Source: Clostridia bacterium (GTDB lineage: Bacteria > Bacillota > Clostridia > Oscillospirales > Acutalibacteraceae). From it: a stretch of DNA of 44,723 nt. Location: contig JAFUQS010000054.1 of assembly GCA_017472225.1 (NCBI GenBank), positions 1-44,723 on the forward strand, read 5' to 3'. The notes below the pieces were generated by a model. The model saw nothing but the letters and a program-made list of their open reading frames with translations, searched no databases and was not told where the DNA came from. How positions within the stretch are numbered: position 1 is the first letter of the stretch; each line of letters opens with the position of its first letter. This document shows, piece after piece, positions 10,515-36,518 of this stretch. The translations under genes and the position numbers were made by a program.

Positions 10515-10550
10515 TTGACACTTATCCGACAAATCAAATAGTTAAACATA

Positions 10551-10591
10551 AAAACCATTGTAAAAAGCTGAATGCTTGATACAATGGTTTT
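10551..10591. terminator. Bidirectional terminator between gdhA and the DUF348 gene
   Basis: AAAACCATTGTA (10551-10562) and TACAATGGTTTT (10580-10591) form a 12-bp perfect stem with T-runs on both sides, fitting convergent gdhA and surface-operon transcripts. A near-copy with GCC instead of ACC is at 29152-29194, so this terminator belongs to the dispersed repeat family. Confidence 0.75.
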
Positions 10592-10604
10592 CTGTTTTAT
10601 CTTT

Positions 10605-10653
10605 TCCTGACTACTGCCTACTGACCCCTGGCTACTGACTCTAGGCTGCTTTC
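10605..10653. repeat. Modular intergenic repeat copy
   Basis: TCCTGACTACTGCCTACTGA and following heptamers, then GGCTGCTTTC, match 290-345. The copy abuts the stop codon of the DUF348-G5 gene at 10655. Its reverse complement continues into AAAAGATAAAA plus the CCATTGTA hairpin, the same order as at 29121-29194. Confidence 0.7.
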
Positions 10654-27533: not shown

Positions 27534-28409
27534 CTAATCCCTGCTTTTTTCAACAGAAATGATTTTTCCCGTAGTTGCATTGATGTCATATTCGTAATCA
27601 TACTGACCATATTCAAATTCAACCTCATAAATACGGATTCCGTTTTCCGTGTCAAGCTTACACTCGAAATCACGAACCTGACTTTTTTTAAGCCCTGCAT
27701 TCTTCAGCGCAATATTACCCGCCTTGGTGTTGCCGATGACCGATGTGCTCGCCTTGCTCACAGAAGCCGTTGTACCTTTTGTTTTCACGGAAATAACATC
27801 CGAAAACTCACCGTAATAATTCTTGGAATCAACCTTGAAGTATGCCCTGACCTTGAATCTATAGGATGTTCCTGCCTTCAGGCCTCTGACTGTTGCCGTA
27901 AGACCCGTTACTGTCGCCTTTCTGACAAACTTTCCTGTTTCGGCATTATACATATAAACCTGATAACCGGTTGCTCTTTTTTCCTTTGCCCATTTGAGCG
28001 TTACGGAGGTTTTTGTTTTTGATGAGAGTCTTACATTCTCCACCTGATCAGGCTTTGTTGCACTTTTGAGAACGGAAGAATATGCTCCGTAGGTCTTTTT
28101 GCCACTGTTCAGTTCATAGGCTCTGACCTTGAATTTATATTGTTTTGCACTTACAAGGTCGTCGGCTTCAAAGCTTGTCTTTTTTGTTGTGCCTATGCTT
28201 TTCCATGCCTTATTCTTATACATATAAACCTGATAGCCGTCGGCACCCGATACCTTTTTCCACTTGAGATTGATTTCATCATCGTCGATGTTATAAGCCT
28301 GAAGTGAGGTTACCTTTCCTATAGACGCTGCCGAAGCCACCGTTACAACCGAAAAGGCTGTGAGAATTACGAGCATAAGGGTCAATAAATTTCTGAAAAC
28401 TTTTTTCAT
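27534..28409 (-). CDS. Secreted FnIII protein with C-terminal PepSY-like domain
   Basis: 291 residues from the ATG at 28409 (AAGGTGG eight bases upstream; GTG and ATG slightly upstream are alternatives). Signal peptide (about 1-28), two FnIII domains (about 32-120 and 125-215) with the paired motif GYQVYMY, then a PepSY-like domain (about 228-291; GNIALKNAGL, YEVEFEYGQYDYEYDINATTGKI). PepSY modules often inhibit or bind proteases. No anchor signal. Single-gene transcript ending at a bidirectional hairpin. Surface or secreted binding role inferred. Confidence 0.78.
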   Translation of the reverse strand: MKKVFRNLLTLMLVILTAFSVVTVASAASIGKVTSLQAYNIDDDEINLKWKKVSGADGYQVYMYKNKAWKSIGTTKKTSFEADDLVSAKQYKFKVRAYELNSGKKTYGAYSSVLKSATKPDQVENVRLSSKTKTSVTLKWAKEKRATGYQVYMYNAETGKFVRKATVTGLTATVRGLKAGTSYRFKVRAYFKVDSKNYYGEFSDVISVKTKGTTASVSKASTSVIGNTKAGNIALKNAGLKKSQVRDFECKLDTENGIRIYEVEFEYGQYDYEYDINATTGKIISVEKSRD

Positions 28410-28534
28410 TCGCATTTCCACCTTTCTGTTTTTTATTTACACCCTTATAATATACGAAAAAGATTAAAGGACAATTAGAAGAATTGAATTATATGTGATA
28501 GCTGAAAAAAATAAATAGTCCTAAAACAAATGAC

Positions 28535-28575
28535 AAAAGCGAAGTTAAATACACCTTGAGTAGACAGTAGTCAGG
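28535..28575. repeat. 41-bp direct repeat, left copy
   Basis: AAAAGCGAAGTTAAATACAC then CTTGAGTAGACAGTAGTCAGG. The copy at 29088-29128 matches at 33 of 41 positions without gaps, so the pair brackets the RNA-like segment. Confidence 0.75.
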
Positions 28576-28632
28576 GGTCAGTAGGCAGTAGTCAGGAGAC
28601 AGGGGTCAGTAGTCAGTAGACAGTAGTCAGGA
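28561..28632. repeat. CAGTAGT-type tandem heptamers
   Basis: About ten imperfect heptamers of the CAGTAGT/CAGTAGA/CAGTAGG/CAGGGGT kind run together. The same motif marks four other intergenic spots in this window. Confidence 0.8.
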
Positions 28633-28679
28633 AAAATAAAAAAGTGAGAATAACAACGTAAAGAGGAATTCTCTTTCAG

Positions 28680-28952
28680 AAAGCAGCCCGTAGCGGGAGC
28701 GACTGTCGGACTACAGGCAGTGGAAAGGCAGACAAATAAATTAGACAATAGCAGACCTTACGGAACAAATTAAACCGAGCGGCTCATTTTATTGAGCGTT
28801 GTTTTAATTAGAGCTGTTCGGCAACCGAGCCGTGGTACAGCACAACGGAGAAATCTGAAAATACCGATAAGAAGAAACCTTGTTTTCTTATCCACGGTGA
28901 GCAGAAAAAACTACCGAGTAAAGGATAGCATAAGCCTGACTCGGTATTTTTA
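28680..28952 (+). ncRNA. Candidate structured non-coding RNA ending in an intrinsic terminator
   Basis: Successive plus-strand hairpins: CCCG-TAG-CGGG (28688-28698); CTGT-N6-ACAG; AATTAAA (28768-28774) with TTTAATT (28803-28809) enclosing GCTCA/TGAGC; GCTGT (28813-28817) with ACAGC (28837-28841); GATAAGAA (28866-28873) with TTCTTATC (28885-28892); and TACCGAGT (28912-28919) with ACTCGGTA (28939-28946) followed by TTTTTAG. A chain of stems with no frame, closed by a terminator-like stem, is what an independent small RNA gene looks like. The 5' end and promoter are not defined. I recognise no known RNA class. Confidence 0.4.
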
Positions 28953-29087
28953 GTTCTTGCGGAGGTTAATCAGCCAGCGTGCTTTTGCTTACTTTTGTCA
29001 CAACCGACAAAAGTAAGAGCCCAAGCGGCTCGAGCGAGCGGAGTCAGAGGAATAGCTGAAGCCTTGCCATTCATCACCACGGCACAT

Positions 29088-29128
29088 AAAAGCGAGGATA
29101 AATACACTTTAAGTGATAAGTAGTCAGG
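29088..29128. repeat. 41-bp direct repeat, right copy
   Basis: AAAAGCGAGGATAAATACAC then TTTAAGTGATAAGTAGTCAGG, partner of 28535-28575. It is followed by AAAAGATAAAA and the CCATTGTA hairpin, the same order seen in reverse near 10.6 kb. Confidence 0.75.
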
Positions 29129-29151
29129 AAAAGATAAAAATGAATAACCAT

Positions 29152-29194
29152 AAAAGCCATTGTATAAGCATACTCAGCTTTTACAATGGCTTTT
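29152..29194. terminator. Terminator of the pilus operon
   Basis: AAAAGCCATTGTA (29152-29164) and TACAATGGCTTTT (29182-29194), a 13-bp perfect stem with T-runs outward on both strands. It lies about 65 bp past the last pilus gene and is a near-copy of the 10551-10591 terminator. Confidence 0.75.
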
Positions 29195-29259
29195 TATATA
29201 TTAAACTGTTTATTTTCCGGACTTCCCCGGGGAATTTCTCTTTTTTACATCACCTTTAA

Positions 29260-29856
29260 TCATATAAGTACACATCTCACCGTAACTCTTGTTGCTCCGC
29301 CATAGGTACAGGTGAAAAGAGTCATATCCCAATCCCCTGCACTCATTTCTTCAACAGCATTGTTGTCAAGAATTTCTGTATACAGAACCTCATAGGTGAA
29401 CACATTGCCGTCAAAATCCTTAAATGTAACTCTGTCACCCTGAGTAAGATTTTTGAGTGAGCCGAAGTGGTTACGGTAATTATGAGCACAAACGATAAAA
29501 TCATTCTTATAAGGTGTACCCTCATAAACACAAGGAGAAATTTTAAAGTTTTCATAGCTCCATTCAGCCATTACGGGAAGGGTTATGCCGAGAGCCGGAA
29601 TTGAAACTGTTCCCACATAATACTTGCCGTCAATTTCTTTTTCAGGCATATCCATTCCGGGATTCACCACATAATCCGGAATACTGCTTACACCCTCGGT
29701 CACCTGAGCCATGTCAAGCTTTTCAAGCACCTGAGATGAAAACCTTTCGGCATTCTTTTCTTCATATGAATTATAAAAGGTCAGGCCCAAAGAAGAAAGC
29801 ACAAAAAGTACGCCTAAAAGCATTATAAATTTTCCTTGTTTTCTGCCTTTATTCAT
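29260..29856 (-). CDS. Second sortase of the pilus operon (class unassigned)
   Basis: A 198-residue membrane-anchored transpeptidase. One N-terminal helix (about 10-27), then the sortase barrel with His125 (VCAHNYRNHFG), Cys183 (TLFTCTYGG) and Arg190. There is no C-terminal membrane helix, so it is not class C; the motif order fits a class B/D-like housekeeping enzyme that anchors finished pili or other LPXTG proteins to the wall. The ATG at 29856 overlaps the end of the basal pilin gene by eight bases, so translation is coupled. Last gene of the operon. Confidence 0.85.
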   Translation of the reverse strand: MNKGRKQGKFIMLLGVLFVLSSLGLTFYNSYEEKNAERFSSQVLEKLDMAQVTEGVSSIPDYVVNPGMDMPEKEIDGKYYVGTVSIPALGITLPVMAEWSYENFKISPCVYEGTPYKNDFIVCAHNYRNHFGSLKNLTQGDRVTFKDFDGNVFTYEVLYTEILDNNAVEEMSAGDWDMTLFTCTYGGATRVTVRCVLI

Positions 29857-30898
29857 CTCTGAGCTCACTCTTTCTGTATTTTGCATAACCGACAATAAAA
29901 AGGAACACACCAATCAATGCAAGATAAGGAACAGGCCAACGAAGTGTACCTGTCACAGGAAGCTCCGGTTCATCGTCGGGCTCTGTTGTTTCCGTTGTTG
30001 TCACCTGAGTTGTGCTTGTCACAGCCTGCGATGTTGTTGTGCTTTGTGAAGCGGTTGTCTGTTCAGGTGAATCTGTGCTGTCCTGTTCCGTTGTTTCGTC
30101 GGGTGCAGTTGTGGTTTCTTCTTCACCGGGGCCTATACCGCTGTTTGTCAGAAGCAGTGTTTTATCATATTGGGAAAGAGATACCACATATCCGCCCAGA
30201 ACATATTTTTCCGTAACTGTCCAATGATAGAAAACGGAAAGCCCGTCCCACTGATAGCGCCAATTATTGCTTTCATTAAGTGTTACGGTGTCATATACTT
30301 CACCGTCACGCAGAAGCTCAACTTCAATTTCAACCGCTTTTTCCGTACCTTCAACCTCAACCCATGACTTGAGAACCTTATAAGAAACGCTGATGGTTTC
30401 AGTGTCATCAGGCACAGCCTCGTATTTTGGCTTGATTATGAGGTTATCCTCCTCACCATAAGGCAGAACAACAATCAACGGCTCACAAAAATAAGTACAT
30501 TCATTCTGTCGGTGCTTATCAGCCATGATGATATATACACCCTTTTCAAAGGCGACACCGTCAAAATTCACAATACCGTTTTTATCTGTTGTATCTGTAT
30601 ACACAGGCACAATATCATCCCTCAGAATATAGGCTGAAATTGTGAGTGCAAGTGATGTCATTTTTTCCGAATCGGAAATATCAAAATTCACACGGTAAGA
30701 GCTGAAGGTATCATTGGGTATGACTTTTGTTCCGCTGACAGTACCCAAACGATAAATATGAAAAACTGCGCCTTCAAGATTTTCTTCACTTGTGCTGTAA
30801 TCTACAGTAATTTTCTGCCCGTCAGCAGCCTGTGTGCCGAATGAAAAAAAGCACAGGCAGACAGTGAATGTGAGAATACACGCCAATATTTTTTTCAT
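29849..30898 (-). CDS. LPVTG-anchored minor/basal pilin-like protein
   Basis: 349 residues: signal peptide (about 1-24), Cna-B/SpaA-like beta domains (about 30-150 and 165-255, the second with SYKVLKSWVEVEG and a closing VTEKYVLGGYVVSLSQ), a Thr/Ser-rich stalk (about 258-308), LPVTG (313-317), a membrane helix and the basic tail KYRKSELRDE. The long Thr/Ser stalk before the sorting signal suits a wall-proximal base subunit. AAAGGAT precedes the ATG. It sits between the class C sortase and the second sortase. Basal role is inferred from stalk and gene order. Confidence 0.83.
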   Translation of the reverse strand: MKKILACILTFTVCLCFFSFGTQAADGQKITVDYSTSEENLEGAVFHIYRLGTVSGTKVIPNDTFSSYRVNFDISDSEKMTSLALTISAYILRDDIVPVYTDTTDKNGIVNFDGVAFEKGVYIIMADKHRQNECTYFCEPLIVVLPYGEEDNLIIKPKYEAVPDDTETISVSYKVLKSWVEVEGTEKAVEIEVELLRDGEVYDTVTLNESNNWRYQWDGLSVFYHWTVTEKYVLGGYVVSLSQYDKTLLLTNSGIGPGEEETTTAPDETTEQDSTDSPEQTTASQSTTTSQAVTSTTQVTTTETTEPDDEPELPVTGTLRWPVPYLALIGVFLFIVGYAKYRKSELRDE

Positions 30899-30972
30899 TT
30901 AATCATCCTTTCTGCCCTCTCGGTCATTTTTTTGACAGCTCTCCCCTGATTGGAGCAATTACGAAAAAGCTT

Positions 30973-31791
30973 TTATTTTTTCTTTCTGTATTTTATCATG
31001 ACATATATGAGCAGCACCAGAAGCATGGGAGCTGCCACAACGGGAGCAATAACAAGAGGGTCAATCTGATTTGCATCGGGAGTTACCACGATCTTGGCTT
31101 CTTCTTCAATGTTCGCAATTCTCTGACCACGGACAAGCAATCTGTGGGAGTTGACGCCATAAGGTGTGCAGGTGACAAGGGTGCAAAGATCCTTGCCCGG
31201 CTCAATTGCCAACGCAGAGATTTCCTCGGGCTCAACGATAAGAATTTCATATACCTGATAAGTGAAGGTTTCACCAACGGTGTTTATCATGAATATATCA
31301 CCTACAGCAACCTTGTCAAGGTTTGTGAAAAGCTTTGCAGAAGGAAGTCCTCTGTGTCCCGAAAGCACACAATGGGTACTTTCGCCGCCGACGGGAAGGC
31401 TTGTCCATTCAATATGACCGACTGCAATCTGCAAAACAGACTCGGAAACGGTGTGATAAATCGGCAAGGATACATCAATTGACGGTATTTCAATATATGC
31501 CATAATTCCCGTACCCGTAATATCGAGCACCGATTCATACAATTTTAATTCTTCGTCCGTGAGATACTGATATCCCATTCTGTCAGTTAAAATTTTATTG
31601 AATTGTCTTGCCTCGTCAATCAGGTCAACCTTTTCCTCTTCTTTCAGATTTGAAACATTTTCCGAATAGGTTGCAATTGCCTTTGACTGATGCTGACTGT
31701 TCCACCAGTCGCTGACGGTAGGATAAAGCAACAAGCCGAGACCGAGTATAAATATTAAAATTAAAAGTATGGTTGTGCCGTGCTTTTTCAT
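30973..31791 (-). CDS. Class C (pilus-assembling) sortase
   Basis: A 272-residue enzyme with two membrane helices (about 6-24 and 247-267), the hallmark of class C. Catalytic residues are His146 (LSGHRGLPSAKLF), Cys208 (TLVTCTPYGVNSHRLLVRG) and Arg217. It would link the major pilin through the LPETG threonine to a lysine of the next subunit. The ATG at 31791 is fixed by AGGAG seven bases upstream. The DP(F/W/Y) lid motif usual before the barrel is not visible in the N-terminal segment (about 60-95). A large hairpin pair separates it from the pilin gene. Confidence 0.92.
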   Translation of the reverse strand: MKKHGTTILLILIFILGLGLLLYPTVSDWWNSQHQSKAIATYSENVSNLKEEEKVDLIDEARQFNKILTDRMGYQYLTDEELKLYESVLDITGTGIMAYIEIPSIDVSLPIYHTVSESVLQIAVGHIEWTSLPVGGESTHCVLSGHRGLPSAKLFTNLDKVAVGDIFMINTVGETFTYQVYEILIVEPEEISALAIEPGKDLCTLVTCTPYGVNSHRLLVRGQRIANIEEEAKIVVTPDANQIDPLVIAPVVAAPMLLVLLIYVMIKYRKKK

Positions 31792-31817
31792 TTGCATCTC
31801 CTGTTTTTTGAATTCAC

Positions 31818-31895
31818 GCTTGTCAAAGGGTCGGAAGAAAATTCCGTATTCATATCCGGCCCTTTGACAAGCCAACGGGACAAAGTCCCGTTAGC
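31818..31895 (-). promoter_or_regulatory. Paired hairpins between pilin and sortase genes
   Basis: GCTTGTCAAAGGG (31818-31830) pairs perfectly with CCCTTTGACAAGC (31860-31872). GCCAACGGGAC (31871-31881) pairs with GTCCCGTTAGC (31885-31895) with one G-T. The two stems share two bases. Neither is followed by a T-run, so they look more like an mRNA 3'-end stabiliser, processing site or partial attenuator than a plain terminator. Confidence 0.65.
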
Positions 31896-31913
31896 TTAAA
31901 AGTTGAACATCAA

Positions 31914-33395
31914 TTATGCTTCTGCTGATGTTCTCTTCTTTGAAATGAGAATTACAACAGCGCCTACAACGAGGAGAGCACCAACGATGTAGAAGATTGT
32001 TGTACCGATACCACCGGTTTCGGGAAGGAGTGAACCTGTGGTGTTTTTGATTGTTGTTTCGAAATAATCATCAACATCAGCACCATCTGTTGCTGTGAAG
32101 GTAACAAGAGTATTATCGCTTGACCATGTGCAATCTGTGCCTGTTGTGGGGTCTGTGCAGGTTACTGTGAATGTGATGTCTTTAGCTTCGTTGTATCCGG
32201 CGGGAGCCTTTGTTTCAACGATTGTGTAGGTTTCGCCATCCTTAAGGCCAACACCATTAGTCCAAGTGAATGCTACCTTACCGTTATCATCTGATGTACC
32301 TGTTGCAATAGTATTGCCGTCTGCATCTTTAACTGCGAATTCTGCACCTGCAAGAGCTTTGTTGTCTTCGTCAGTCTTGTTGATGATAAGGTCTACAAGA
32401 TATGTACGAGTGATGTCTTTTTCTGTTGTGTCTGTGTCTGTAGTATCCTGAGGATTATTTGAATATTCAAGTACAACTGAGTTGGGGTTGCCTTCAACGC
32501 CGATGATAGCGTTTTCGTTAACTTTTGCTGAATATGTGATCTTGATTTCCTCACCTGCTTTGTCTGCAAGGTTGATGAAATTGGTGAAGTTGATTGTAAC
32601 AACCTGACCATTTGTTGAAACTGCAACATCAGTGTATTTTTCACCGCCAACAGTAACAACAACATCGTTGTTAAAGGTAAGACCATCTGAAAGGGTATCG
32701 GTTACGGTATAGGTGTACTTTGTATAACCTGTCATGTCGGGAACCTTTGATGTAAGAACATAAGGAACTGACTCACCAACTGTTGCTGTGTTGTAATCAA
32801 CAAGACCTGCTGTTGTGTCATCCTTATCTGTGTCACCGTCAATCTTCTTTTCGATTGAGGGCTTGTCAGCCTTAAGTGTAACTTCTGCTGATGTTGTTCT
32901 GAGCATAAGAGCTGAAATAGGAGTTGCTGTGCCTTCGTCTTCAATTACATAGTAACCGAAATCAAGGTCTGTGAATGTTGCTTTGTCGTTTGCACCTGTT
33001 GCTGAAGCCGGGCTAATGCCTGCAGCTTTTGCTGCTGCAAGAGCCTCTACTGCAAATGCCTGAAGTTCAGCAGCCTTATCTTTGAGGCCTTCAAGAGCTG
33101 TTGTTACTTCGTCAACTGTAGCAACTTTGTCATCGCCACCAAACTTTGTGTTGTAGAAGCTCTGTAAAGCTTCAGGAATTGAATAAATAACACCTGCTTC
33201 AAGATTGTCTGCATCAACTGCTTCTGCATCAAGGATCTTATAAGCCTTGAATACTTTGCCGTCAACAGATACATTTGTTGCGCTGTTGATTGTGATGTCG
33301 CCTGTCCATGTGGAAGCTGCGAATGCGGGGATTGCCATTGCGAATACGAGTGCGAGAGCAAGTATTACGCTGAAGATTTTGTTTGTCTTTTTCAT
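31914..33395 (-). CDS. Major pilin, SpaH/EbpB-like, LPETG-anchored
   Basis: A 493-residue shaft subunit. Signal peptide (about 1-27, ending AFAAS), N-domain (about 28-175), an isopeptide-D2-type domain (about 185-330; VPYVLTSKVPDM, NPQDTTDTDTT), a Cna-B domain with SpaA-type motif (about 335-440; GAEFAVKDADGN, YTIVETKAPAGYNE) and LPETG (457-461), helix and KKRTSAEA tail. The canonical YPK pilin motif is not seen; LKADKPSIEKK (about 160-170) holds the likely linking lysine. AAAGGAA precedes ATG. The neighbouring class C sortase and tip protein make the role clear. Confidence 0.92.
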   Translation of the reverse strand: MKKTNKIFSVILALALVFAMAIPAFAASTWTGDITINSATNVSVDGKVFKAYKILDAEAVDADNLEAGVIYSIPEALQSFYNTKFGGDDKVATVDEVTTALEGLKDKAAELQAFAVEALAAAKAAGISPASATGANDKATFTDLDFGYYVIEDEGTATPISALMLRTTSAEVTLKADKPSIEKKIDGDTDKDDTTAGLVDYNTATVGESVPYVLTSKVPDMTGYTKYTYTVTDTLSDGLTFNNDVVVTVGGEKYTDVAVSTNGQVVTINFTNFINLADKAGEEIKITYSAKVNENAIIGVEGNPNSVVLEYSNNPQDTTDTDTTEKDITRTYLVDLIINKTDEDNKALAGAEFAVKDADGNTIATGTSDDNGKVAFTWTNGVGLKDGETYTIVETKAPAGYNEAKDITFTVTCTDPTTGTDCTWSSDNTLVTFTATDGADVDDYFETTIKNTTGSLLPETGGIGTTIFYIVGALLVVGAVVILISKKRTSAEA

Positions 33396-33467
33396 GACTT
33401 TTTCCTTTCTTTTTTTCTCCCTTTGGGAGTATTTTAATAATTTATTATATAATGCGGGGTGTCTGTC

Positions 33468-36400
33468 TCACTCCCTTAAGCGCCTACCCTCCTTTCTCTG
33501 CCTTTTTTTATATAAACAGAGTAGAAAGACAGAGCTCAAGATAATGAGCAGTCCTCCGATTATATACAAGTAATGAGTTCCGAAGCCACCGGTTTCGGGA
33601 AGAATGTGGCCTTCAATAAGGTTAACTACCTTGTCGTTGATTCCCGACCAGACTTTTTGTGTACCGTCGGAAAGGTATTCAATTATGGTTATTTCATTGT
33701 AGGCAACATCAACGACATATGTGCTTCCGTTTGAAATATATCCTTCGGGAACTACCGTTTCTTTCATATAGTAGAAATGTCCCGAGGGAATATCCGTGAA
33801 GGATACAGTACCGTTTTCGTTTGAAACCTCGACGAATTTGGTAACGTCAACAACAGAGGTTCCGTCGCCCTGGCAGATGGCACAGGCGGTCATATCGTGA
33901 AACAGGGTAAATTCTGCATCCGGGAGCACAGAGCCCATATTGTTGGTTTTGGTAAAGCTGAACTCGGAAAGATATCCGTTAACGGCAGGCTTCGGGAAAT
34001 AAACGCTTCGTGATTCGGAAATATTCTGAACGCCGTCTGAAGTAACAATTGTTCTGTATTCAAGGAAGGCGTTACCGTTGGTCGGATAAACCGTTCCTTC
34101 AACAAAGCCGCTGTTTTCGTTCTGTAGCCTTACTCTGTATTTTACGCTGTAAAAATAATAAGTAGTGTTCGGGTCATCAGGATCAACGGAGGTTGTATAT
34201 CCGGACTTTTTAAGATCCCAGAAAATGATACCGTCGGTGTGGTTTGCCGTATCCTCGGCACCTTCAGTAAATTCACCGGTGAGAACATCGGGATTTTCCG
34301 ACACATTACCGTCCTTATCATAGAAATAGATAAATTCAACAGTTCTGTTACCGTCATCAAGAACGGGCAAGGGGTCAGTTGCAGTCCAGACAGTTTTGGT
34401 GGTTTGTCCGTTGAGCTCTAAAATTTCCTGAAAAATATTATTGAAAGCAGTCGTTATACCTTCCTGGTCCGTACTGTCATAGTAATAACCGGAACCGGAA
34501 CCGATACTGTTACCGAGCCAGTTTTTATAAGCATTCAGGTCATTTGCACCGCCGATTTCATAGGTAGTACCCGTTCGGTCAACAATTGAGTTGGATGATG
34601 AGCTGTTGTTGATGTGCTGCTGAACAGTCTGACCGGCAATGTCAACACCGACTGAGAAAATCTTTGCATCTTGTGATTTTATGTAGGTTGCCATTTCTCT
34701 TGCTTTTATTGATGCCTTATCACTATAGCTTGTACCGTATTTACAGTAGGTTTTGAGAACAGAGTCATAGAAAACACCGTCTGTTCCGACTGTACCGCTT
34801 TCTGTATACGGCTCATAGCCGCTGTAATCGGTTGAATCAGGAGAATTATCTTTAAGATAAGTCGTCGGGAAGCCGTCAGTCAGAAGAATAACATACTGAT
34901 TGGAGTTGCCCGAAGCTTCAAGCATATCATAAGCTCGTTTCAGACCGCCTTCAACATTGGTATATCTTGTACGTGCCGAGCCGTATCCGCTGGCACTTAT
35001 AATTGAATCGGTTTCCGATGACATTTCACTTATAAGACTGCTTGCCTGATCTGCAGTTGAGCAAGGTTGAAGAGCAAAAATTTCGTGAGCGCTTGTGTTA
35101 AATGCCACAAAGCCTATCTTACTCAGACCCGCCGTGTTTTCGGCAAACTGATTTATGAAGTTTGACGCCGCAGTAACCGCCGCATCATATCTTGACATAG
35201 TGTCGTCGGTAAATATGGAGTTCATGGTGTTCGAGATATCCATTACAATGACAACAGCCATATCCGGCTCTGAAAGGAAGGTCTGAACATTAGTTTTCGT
35301 CTGCACAGTAAGGGTGATATCGAAAACATTTTCAAGCTCGGTACCCTTCAATTTTTTACTTACAACAACATTCTTATCGGCAGATGTTACCGTACCGCCT
35401 GCATCATTAACCTGTGTGTCCGACGGCTTTTCGATGACGATAGGCTCGTCTTCTTCAACATCAACAGGTATGTAATAATCGCTGAAGGTAACCGTACCGA
35501 AGGAGGATGTATTTTTTCCCGATGTGTTCAGATAGTCAAAGTTGACTGTTGCTTCGTCACCGATTTCGCAATCAAAGGTGTTGCTGTCACCGTGAGAAAG
35601 AAGTACAAAGCCTTTCGATGTTGAGGGCTTAAGATCACTTTTGTCATGGAGATCATAGTCATATTTTGCGGTTACAACCAAATCTCCGTATTCGTTTTCA
35701 TCAACAACAACAGCATACCAGTACCAGAAGCCGAAGCCACTGTAATCGCCTACATTTCCGCTATGTATCAGAACGGATTTATAAGCTGTAGCACTATCGT
35801 AATAGTTGACGAATTCAACGGTTCTTGTTTCGGTTACGGCATACGAATTGCCAACTGAATAAAGCCATTCATACTCGAAGAAGTCCGTTTTGTTAGGTAC
35901 CTCTTCACAAAGCTCAGGACCAAGATTTTCATAGTTTACCAAGGCTCTTGTTGCAATGGCATAAACCTCTTTATAATATTCCTCATAGCCTTCATAGTCC
36001 TCTGCCTGGTCAAGCCTGTCAAGCTTGTTTTCAAATTCATCTATATCGGGAAGCTGATTTATCAGGTAAGTAACATACTGAACTGCCTTTTCTTTGAACT
36101 CCTCACTTTCACGGTCAAGCCCCCAGGGCTCTTCCTTTCCCCATTCGGTACAAGCAAGAATATCATCCTTGGTATAGCATTTACTGTTGTGGATATGCTC
36201 TGAAGCATTTCCGTCGGTTACATTTCCATCGGTCACATTGCCCCCTGTGGCAAGCTCCTTAATGAAGCAGAATTCCTCATGCTGATGCTCCGTAAGCTCA
36301 CAGGTCAGCTCATTTTCAACTGAATAACAGGAGTAAGTATGACTGTGCTCCGTCATTCCGCAATAGGTCTGATTATCCATTGTTATGGCAGGAAGAATAA

Positions 36401-36518
36401 GCATGTAGGTTGTCCAGAATACAACAACTATAGCAAGTGCTCTTGCAACTTTCTGCCATCGTTTTTCAAGTTTTGATAAAAGTAGAATTTCGGCAACCTT
36501 CTGCCAGAACGCCTGCAT
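33468..36518 (-). CDS. Pilus tip adhesin with von Willebrand A domain
   Basis: 1016 residues. An N-terminal helix (about 28-46) ends in LPAITMDNQ, typical of this surface-protein group. Then come three EHxHxxxC repeats (57-64, 77-84, 107-114), a mixed region, and a VWA domain (about 420-705) whose metal site reads MDISNTMNS (Asp427; Thr in place of the second Ser) with LLTDGFP. A Cna-B/SpaA domain (about 860-960) with LPDAEFTLFH is followed by LPETG (973-977), helix and basic tail. By analogy with RrgA/PilA it would sit at the pilus tip and bind host or food surfaces. AAGGGGGG precedes ATG. Confidence 0.9.
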   Translation of the reverse strand: MQAFWQKVAEILLLSKLEKRWQKVARALAIVVVFWTTYMLILPAITMDNQTYCGMTEHSHTYSCYSVENELTCELTEHQHEEFCFIKELATGGNVTDGNVTDGNASEHIHNSKCYTKDDILACTEWGKEEPWGLDRESEEFKEKAVQYVTYLINQLPDIDEFENKLDRLDQAEDYEGYEEYYKEVYAIATRALVNYENLGPELCEEVPNKTDFFEYEWLYSVGNSYAVTETRTVEFVNYYDSATAYKSVLIHSGNVGDYSGFGFWYWYAVVVDENEYGDLVVTAKYDYDLHDKSDLKPSTSKGFVLLSHGDSNTFDCEIGDEATVNFDYLNTSGKNTSSFGTVTFSDYYIPVDVEEDEPIVIEKPSDTQVNDAGGTVTSADKNVVVSKKLKGTELENVFDITLTVQTKTNVQTFLSEPDMAVVIVMDISNTMNSIFTDDTMSRYDAAVTAASNFINQFAENTAGLSKIGFVAFNTSAHEIFALQPCSTADQASSLISEMSSETDSIISASGYGSARTRYTNVEGGLKRAYDMLEASGNSNQYVILLTDGFPTTYLKDNSPDSTDYSGYEPYTESGTVGTDGVFYDSVLKTYCKYGTSYSDKASIKAREMATYIKSQDAKIFSVGVDIAGQTVQQHINNSSSSNSIVDRTGTTYEIGGANDLNAYKNWLGNSIGSGSGYYYDSTDQEGITTAFNNIFQEILELNGQTTKTVWTATDPLPVLDDGNRTVEFIYFYDKDGNVSENPDVLTGEFTEGAEDTANHTDGIIFWDLKKSGYTTSVDPDDPNTTYYFYSVKYRVRLQNENSGFVEGTVYPTNGNAFLEYRTIVTSDGVQNISESRSVYFPKPAVNGYLSEFSFTKTNNMGSVLPDAEFTLFHDMTACAICQGDGTSVVDVTKFVEVSNENGTVSFTDIPSGHFYYMKETVVPEGYISNGSTYVVDVAYNEITIIEYLSDGTQKVWSGINDKVVNLIEGHILPETGGFGTHYLYIIGGLLIILSSVFLLCLYKKRQRKEGRRLRE

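Follow-up and report, generated by a model that had tools for sequence, protein, structure and literature searches.

What kind of sequence occupies the gene-free segment at 28535-29128 of the window (the whole 44,723-nt stretch of DNA analysed here), and is it the gene for a single RNA? A sequence-only reading had described it as a structured RNA candidate lying between 41-bp direct repeats, an arrangement suggestive of an acquired or mobile cassette, and had offered a new small RNA family or the remains of a repeat element as its identity. Much of this description holds. The direct repeat is real (28535-28575 against 29088-29128, gap-free, 80% identical), and the only open reading frames of at least 50 amino acids between its two occurrences encode 53 and 56 amino acids, in keeping with the claim that the interval holds no protein frame. 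The segment is also structured, as had been proposed, with several inverted repeats and with a fold of 28660-29100 that is better than those of 100 dinucleotide shuffles on both strands (z -3.54 for RNA on the plus strand, -2.77 for RNA on the minus strand and -3.34 for DNA on the plus strand). The absence of any recognisable RNA class was likewise borne out: no Rfam family scores at or above its gathering threshold in the window, where seven sub-threshold matches have E values of 0.14-4.5, or in 14 related loci. Known RNA classes were rejected as the identity because neither Rfam nor ARAGORN gave a match, and phage or plasmid cargo was rejected because viral contigs, phages and plasmids gave none.

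The segment is not unique. A BLAST search with 28400-29300 (E <= 0.001) against the assembly of the uncultured gut bacterium to which the window belongs (G000; 2.33 Mb in 111 contigs) returned 64 matches, and the 39 longest besides the window itself (at least 345 bases) are 81-92% identical to the window copy. The covariance model R1, described below, finds at least 73 matches in the same genome, fragments included, a count that takes in copies of a second (B) type, pieces at contig ends and one overlapping opposite-strand pair. In an alignment of 40 copies the core spans about 28660-29120, with 10-nt blocks that are 76-100% conserved, and the flanking sequence is unconserved beyond heptamer arrays and a terminator-like hairpin. 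The unit size is about 330-560 bp. Many contigs start or stop inside copies, as expected, since repeats break assemblies. Among 29 long copies identity averages 90% and reaches 96% in the closest pair; there is thus no sign of recent spread or movement in this genome. The suggestion that the segment is the remains of a repeat element therefore came close to the evidence, the segment being one of many copies. The interpretation favoured here, at a probability of a little under 60%, is that it represents one copy of a large, non-autonomous, REP/REPIN- or MITE-like dispersed element, whose family shows only part of the features that define REP/REPIN sequences and MITEs. The 64 matches in its own genome, together with at least 19 positive genomes among the 33 others of the genus, are the first ground for that interpretation.

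The 41-bp repeats do not bracket an acquired RNA cassette; they consist of the element's own 3' tail and a heptamer array. Aligned copies end in about AAAAGCGAAGNTAAATACACTTTAAGT, followed by units of the heptamer AGTAGTC, and an array also lies 5' of most copies read. Because the aligned tails run into arrays, each 41-nt repeat is read as a tail plus array; the tail in the first belongs to another copy, most of which is lost, and that in the second to the window copy itself. The foreign tail remnant, of the same sequence type as the aligned tails, covers 28535-28558 (plus strand, as are all parts of the copy given below), and is followed at 28559-28630 by a degenerate (AGTAGTC)n array, a separate repeat (family D1) that flanks many copies. 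At the other end, the tail and first heptamer units of the window copy occupy 29084-29128 and hold the second repeat (29088-29128). The array was rejected as a fixed part of the element because the two distributions differ: among the matches listed for the 34 genus genomes, arrays are abundant in four (G000, G014, G004 and G005), single in two (G042 and G018) and lacking in the remaining 28, whereas the element is found in 20. Arrays also occur in 2 of 294 other genomes of the order.

The 5' stub (28640-28686) contains a hairpin AAAGAG..CTCTTT and has 57 matches in its own genome, where a reversed-pattern control gave none. Thirty loci read hold 31 such stubs, of which 24 lead into the core, six into an array instead and one to a contig end. 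A lone stub followed by an array, the core being absent, also lies on the minus strand of the window at 290-380. At six distinct places the array follows a T run, and the terminator hairpin is plain at three of these (L033 and both sides of L039), where the T run of an intrinsic terminator is followed immediately by the array. These starts hint at the origin of the arrays or the manner of their insertion. Group IIC introns insert after terminators, and a mechanism resembling theirs was considered for the arrays, as an unproven analogy.

Following the stub, the 5' domain of the window copy (28687-28854) is of the A type, with motifs TAGCGG..TGTCGG and GCAGAC, and its letters have strongly diverged between species. 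Next comes S3, a long-range helix formed by CTGAAAATACCGA at 28855-28867 and TCGGTATTTTTAG at 28941-28953 (inverted repeat I4), the arms of which lie about 75 nt apart. The 3' module starts at 28976 and contains hairpin H (28988-28999 with 29006-29017; inverted repeat I5), next to which stands a small hairpin AGCC..GGCT (29018-29030) drawn from the structure alignments (the 11-row seed and the 76 rows). Minimum-energy folds further place a possible enclosing helix between GCCGTGG (28829-28835) and CCACGGC (29077-29083).

Pairing in S3 and H is kept across species. A first alignment, A1 (20 of 22 sequences), was left out of model building because MAFFT had placed some S3 arms out of register, and R1 (179 positions) was built instead from 11 sequences chosen in register (A2). 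In this seed 95.2% of cells pair, both-sided changes are found in 9 of 29 pairs, and four of five covariation measures lie above nearly all shuffles, the exception being "further standard pair types" (10 against a mean of 12.2). The larger alignment A3 (76 distinct rows), which leans towards the structure of R1 because it was aligned to that model, pairs in 96.0% of cells, has both-sided changes in 22 of 28 pairs and reaches a covariation score of 0.414, against 0.106 when shuffled and 0.05-0.08 when slid. A model-free search recovered 9-10 of 10 pairs at near-equal spacing in G014, G017, G021, G007 and G002; copies in G004 and G005 keep H and lack S3 in this form. S3 and H stay paired between species while their letters change.

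The call for homologues with compensating changes was thus answered positively, but by S3 and H, which the sequence-only reading had not singled out. The last stem that it did name, TACCGAGT/ACTCGGTA (28912-28919 with 28939-28946), exists, with eight of eight pairs in 38 of 40 own copies, but is not kept in the other species aligned. Most of its right arm falls within that of S3, and the TTTTTAG that follows the stem is itself a piece of the S3 right arm. In G021, which contributes three aligned copies, the left motif is intact in one and altered in two, and the stem cannot form there because the S3 arms differ; the motif is absent from the G017 rows. The terminator scan is uninformative on this stem because it allowed loops of 3-8 nt only and the loop here measures 19 nt. 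A discrete small RNA ending near 28952 is for these reasons not supported, and it is very improbable that the segment is the gene for a small RNA acting in trans or represents a new class of RNA. Although the fold is better than shuffles, Rfam gives no match and homologues covary, the last stem named is not preserved among aligned relatives and competes with a conserved helix, dozens of copies exist, both strands fold well, and the sole plus-strand promoter-like site found by the promoter scan of 28400-29300 is at 29180-29207, past the element. Nor do copies in tandem gene pairs show a strand preference, as detailed below.

In relatives, a search by DNA alone matched 13 of 38 genomes, all within the genus and mostly at 28976-29036 or at the element ends; at the places matched, the order of parts is identical and the letters are very different. 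The exact hairpin pattern occurs in 18 stretches of five MAGs, namely Oscillospiraceae SIG577 and Clostridia RGIG6175, RGIG6218, RGIG7726 and RGIG895, the four RGIG genomes coming from sheep, buffalo and cattle rectum. The R1 model extends this range to at least 19 of the 33 other genus genomes, with 1 to 31 matches each and most of them multi-copy. Beyond the genus it gives weak matches in 5 of 146 genomes of the order and 3 of 39 of the family; those read have H or a like hairpin, with different 5' parts. Different species carry separate subfamilies of the element. No description of the family was found in a literature search mostly limited to non-subscription papers. Judged from sequence, the family points to an undescribed repeat of mobile type, and not to a single small-RNA gene.

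Within its own genome the element hardly varies where it pairs. Across the 40 copies the arms of S3 and H hold 11 variants in 1942 cells, against 1156 in 14954 for the other core columns, and this constraint joined to the pairing between species is a second ground for a REP/REPIN- or MITE-like element. The S3 arms alone hold 4 variants in 1028 cells and the 12 nt before H hold 3 in 456; variants seen in a single copy number 42 of 8639 cells in 28780-28999, against 174 of 8870 over the remainder of 28640-29117. The constraint on the arms may come from selection on each copy, from selection on source lineages or from gene conversion. Low variation in individual copies could mean function in place, and was counted against the mobile-element reading. 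Over 89 rows, duplicates included, 48 of 2134 paired cells are G-U on the plus strand, against 19 cells with A-C; the paucity of G-U suits pairing within a DNA strand or strand-switching repair, and its small excess over A-C suits the plus strand as RNA.

Strand-switching during replication leads to quasi-palindrome correction, which keeps arms complementary. The element might accordingly be an old, dead repeat whose complementarity arises mainly in this way rather than from selection on structure. The preponderance of two-sided, Watson-Crick changes and the small number of one-sided G-U states would fit, as would copies that are on average 90% identical. This explanation is nonetheless unlikely, for the S3 arms are far apart and nearly invariant in this genome, where no pair-by-pair drift is seen, and conservation extends outside the arms, as in the 12 nt before H.

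The position of copies relative to genes bears on both the preferred reading and its chief competitor. In the window's genome, 22 of 29 genes flanking the element on its 5' side are oriented into it, and 26 of 34 flanking it on the 3' side are oriented towards it; where both sides could be called (n = 26, hand count), 15 placements are convergent, 3 are ++, 6 are -- and 2 are divergent. The corresponding figures for 32 placements in relatives are 10, 13, 6 and 3. All orientation counts rest on simple ORF calls, and those for relatives include one G023 locus twice, as L122 and L218, whose 5' calls disagree. Combined, 25 placements are convergent and 5 divergent (p 0.0003), the window background being 3 convergent pairs among 34 adjacent ORF pairs, and tandem pairs have no strand preference (16 against 12, p 0.57). 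Few copies lie at promoters, and their orientation does not track that of transcription. The excess of convergent over divergent placements, with the paucity of G-U pairs, is a third ground for the REP/REPIN- or MITE-like reading.

These data can also be read in terms of RNA acting in cis. The element would then be a 3' UTR component (for end protection, termination or decay control) that spread and was afterwards kept by selection on each copy, a role which, in the available text of PMC3733652, is argued for some REPs. Arms that hardly vary in individual copies, the frequency with which the 5'-side gene points into the element, the greater number of G-U than A-C cells on the plus strand and the many copies that end beside terminator-like hairpins would all agree with it. 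An example of the last is an inverted repeat with 18-nt arms, 94% complementary, at 29152-29194 (I2, assigned to neither strand), which is probably the terminator of the convergent sortase gene; that assignment is our own reading, the repeat being absent from the list produced by the terminator scan. Similar hairpins follow many copies in the same genome. Set against a cis-acting RNA are the lack of strand preference in tandem pairs, the few G-U pairs, the ability of both strands to fold well, and S3 letters that differ wholly between species yet are fixed within one genome. We regard it as doubtful.

Returning to the REP/REPIN- or MITE-like element, its modular construction furnishes a fourth ground, through the B type, head-to-head doublets and long inverted ends. 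B-type copies carry another 5' module joined to the same 3' module as the A type. At six of ten B-type loci they stand head to head with an A-type 5' stub across an array. The other four comprise two that run into the edge of a contig, one where the B motif stands with no A stub, and one lacking both motif and stub. Among 27 neighbouring pairs of matches, 18 are in (-,+) orientation within 600 nt, their 3' modules facing outward; the others are 5 in (+,-) orientation, 1 with both matches on one strand and 3 with a wider separation. Pairs involving L084 (one of each orientation) were removed because this locus lies inside L126. Three doublets in G008 have inverted ends of 145-319 bp that are 83-91% identical. 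Pairing in opposite orientation is common in relatives; most A copies, that of the window included, stand alone, and an inverted-repeat search saw no paired inverted ends at the window copy. This copy is a single A-type half, adjoining the tail of another copy and lying between a sortase gene downstream and an fn3/PepSY gene upstream, both on the minus strand. In G008 (L234-L238), the doublets are embedded among further palindromic repeats, arranged as mosaics and including CTCCCTCAGTCACTTCGTGACAGCTCCC and TAAATTTTAGTTT.

Comparison with described systems places the family between several of them. According to the available text of PMC3733652 and PMC3116915, REP, BIME and REPIN elements go together with RAYT (TnpA_REP) transposases. 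The present element resembles them in being intergenic, multi-copy and hairpin-forming, in units that at some loci stand in opposite orientation, in lying mostly between convergent or same-direction genes, and in stem letters that change together. It differs in its unit size of about 330-560 bp against 20-40 bp, in having several helices, one of them long-range, in the lack of a Y1_Tnp match in its genome, and in the rarity of G-U pairs, which are frequent in REPs (PMC3733652, available text). The REP tag, an unpaired GTAG or CGTC at one end of a 20-40 bp palindrome, is absent; GTAG occurs in the array and in GTAGCGG, in neither case as a tag of this sort. Like MITEs and fold-back elements, it is non-coding and present in many copies, and the G008 doublets have long inverted ends; unlike them, it has no consistent target duplication, the window copy has no paired inverted end, and no parent transposon was identified. 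Bacterial stem-loop sequence families are likewise foldable repeats grouped in families within a genome, although 67 of their 92 models span 31-200 bp (PMC2267715, available text). With ROOL (named after rumen), GOLLD and OLE it shares the character of a large structured non-coding unit; these are RNAs, ROOL and GOLLD being encoded in phages or prophages near tRNAs in the portion of PMC12286853 available, whereas the element has no Rfam or phage match. Finally, it differs from retroelement-derived repeats in that no reverse transcriptase (PF00078) match, and from TnpB/IscB-type elements with guide RNA in that no TnpB-type nuclease match, is present in its genome.

The same searches led to the rejection of a Y1 transposase, a reverse transcriptase or TnpB as the mover, none having a match in the window's genome (91% complete). 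Y1_Tnp (PF01797) was positive in 5 of 14 known genomes used as a control, and is present, going by the matches listed for the element, in 11 of the 20 genomes that carry it and in 10 of the other 14; its presence does not go with the element. RVT_1 (PF00078) is positive in 6 of the 34 genus genomes, and the TnpB-type domain (PF07282) in 4 of 34 at E <= 0.001, two of these over the cut-off. No empty site was seen, and possible target duplications are sparse. Among 25 own copies a possible one is seen at L040 alone (contig C5), where a 23-bp sequence with one mismatch flanks the whole array-plus-element insertion, 652 bp apart; it was seen by eye, the direct-repeat filter having missed it. In G017, where the search covered 7 of the 9 copies fetched (L211 was dropped by the pattern and L217 is truncated), one copy is flanked on its two sides by variants of a hairpin sequence about 55 bp long. 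None convincing was found in 13 doublets; an 81-nt direct repeat at L055 is taken to be another dispersed repeat because the same sequence also follows L056.

Under the preferred reading, the element would depend for its copying or movement on an enzyme acting in trans, which might recognise it as a folded strand through H and S3. Selection on this recognition step would keep the arms complementary, and copies would survive between gene ends, where harm is small. A more specific proposal can be put forward only tentatively: that this is a new bacterial mobile element recognised by shape, in which a lineage-specific complementary S3 pair and a single-strand fold allow copying in trans by a host enzyme, and H, which dispersed repeats in other genera of the order would have in common with it, is the end to which exchanged 5' modules are joined. 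Whatever its mover, the element fills dozens of intergenic gaps in one genome and breaks its assembly, and it offers a clear case of arms that are complementary between species and nearly fixed within one genome. Such behaviour makes it testable whether stems are maintained by shape recognition, by RNA function or by strand-switching.

Other repeats and mobile sequences intersect with these copies. At L046 (contig C10, about 31173-31455) a palindromic insert about 278 nt long splits one copy. Its inverted ends (AGTTGGCGGGAG..CTCCCGCCAACT) are imperfect and 26 nt in length, and its RNA fold has z -10.3; a tRNA-like identity was rejected for the insert, which is probably a separate MITE-like element. 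At L031 (contig C86) the hairpin that follows the copy is interrupted by the putative start of an IS3-type transposase. The hairpin AAAACCATTGTAT..ACAATGGTTTT and a shared stretch downstream of it occur in the window at 29150-29225 and 10525-10615 and recur 3' of many copies; this could be an independent repeat or a terminator that has spread. The region 27534-36518 of the window holds a cluster of sortase genes (Sortase domain) and of large surface proteins with LPETGG-like ends, which is probably a pilus locus.
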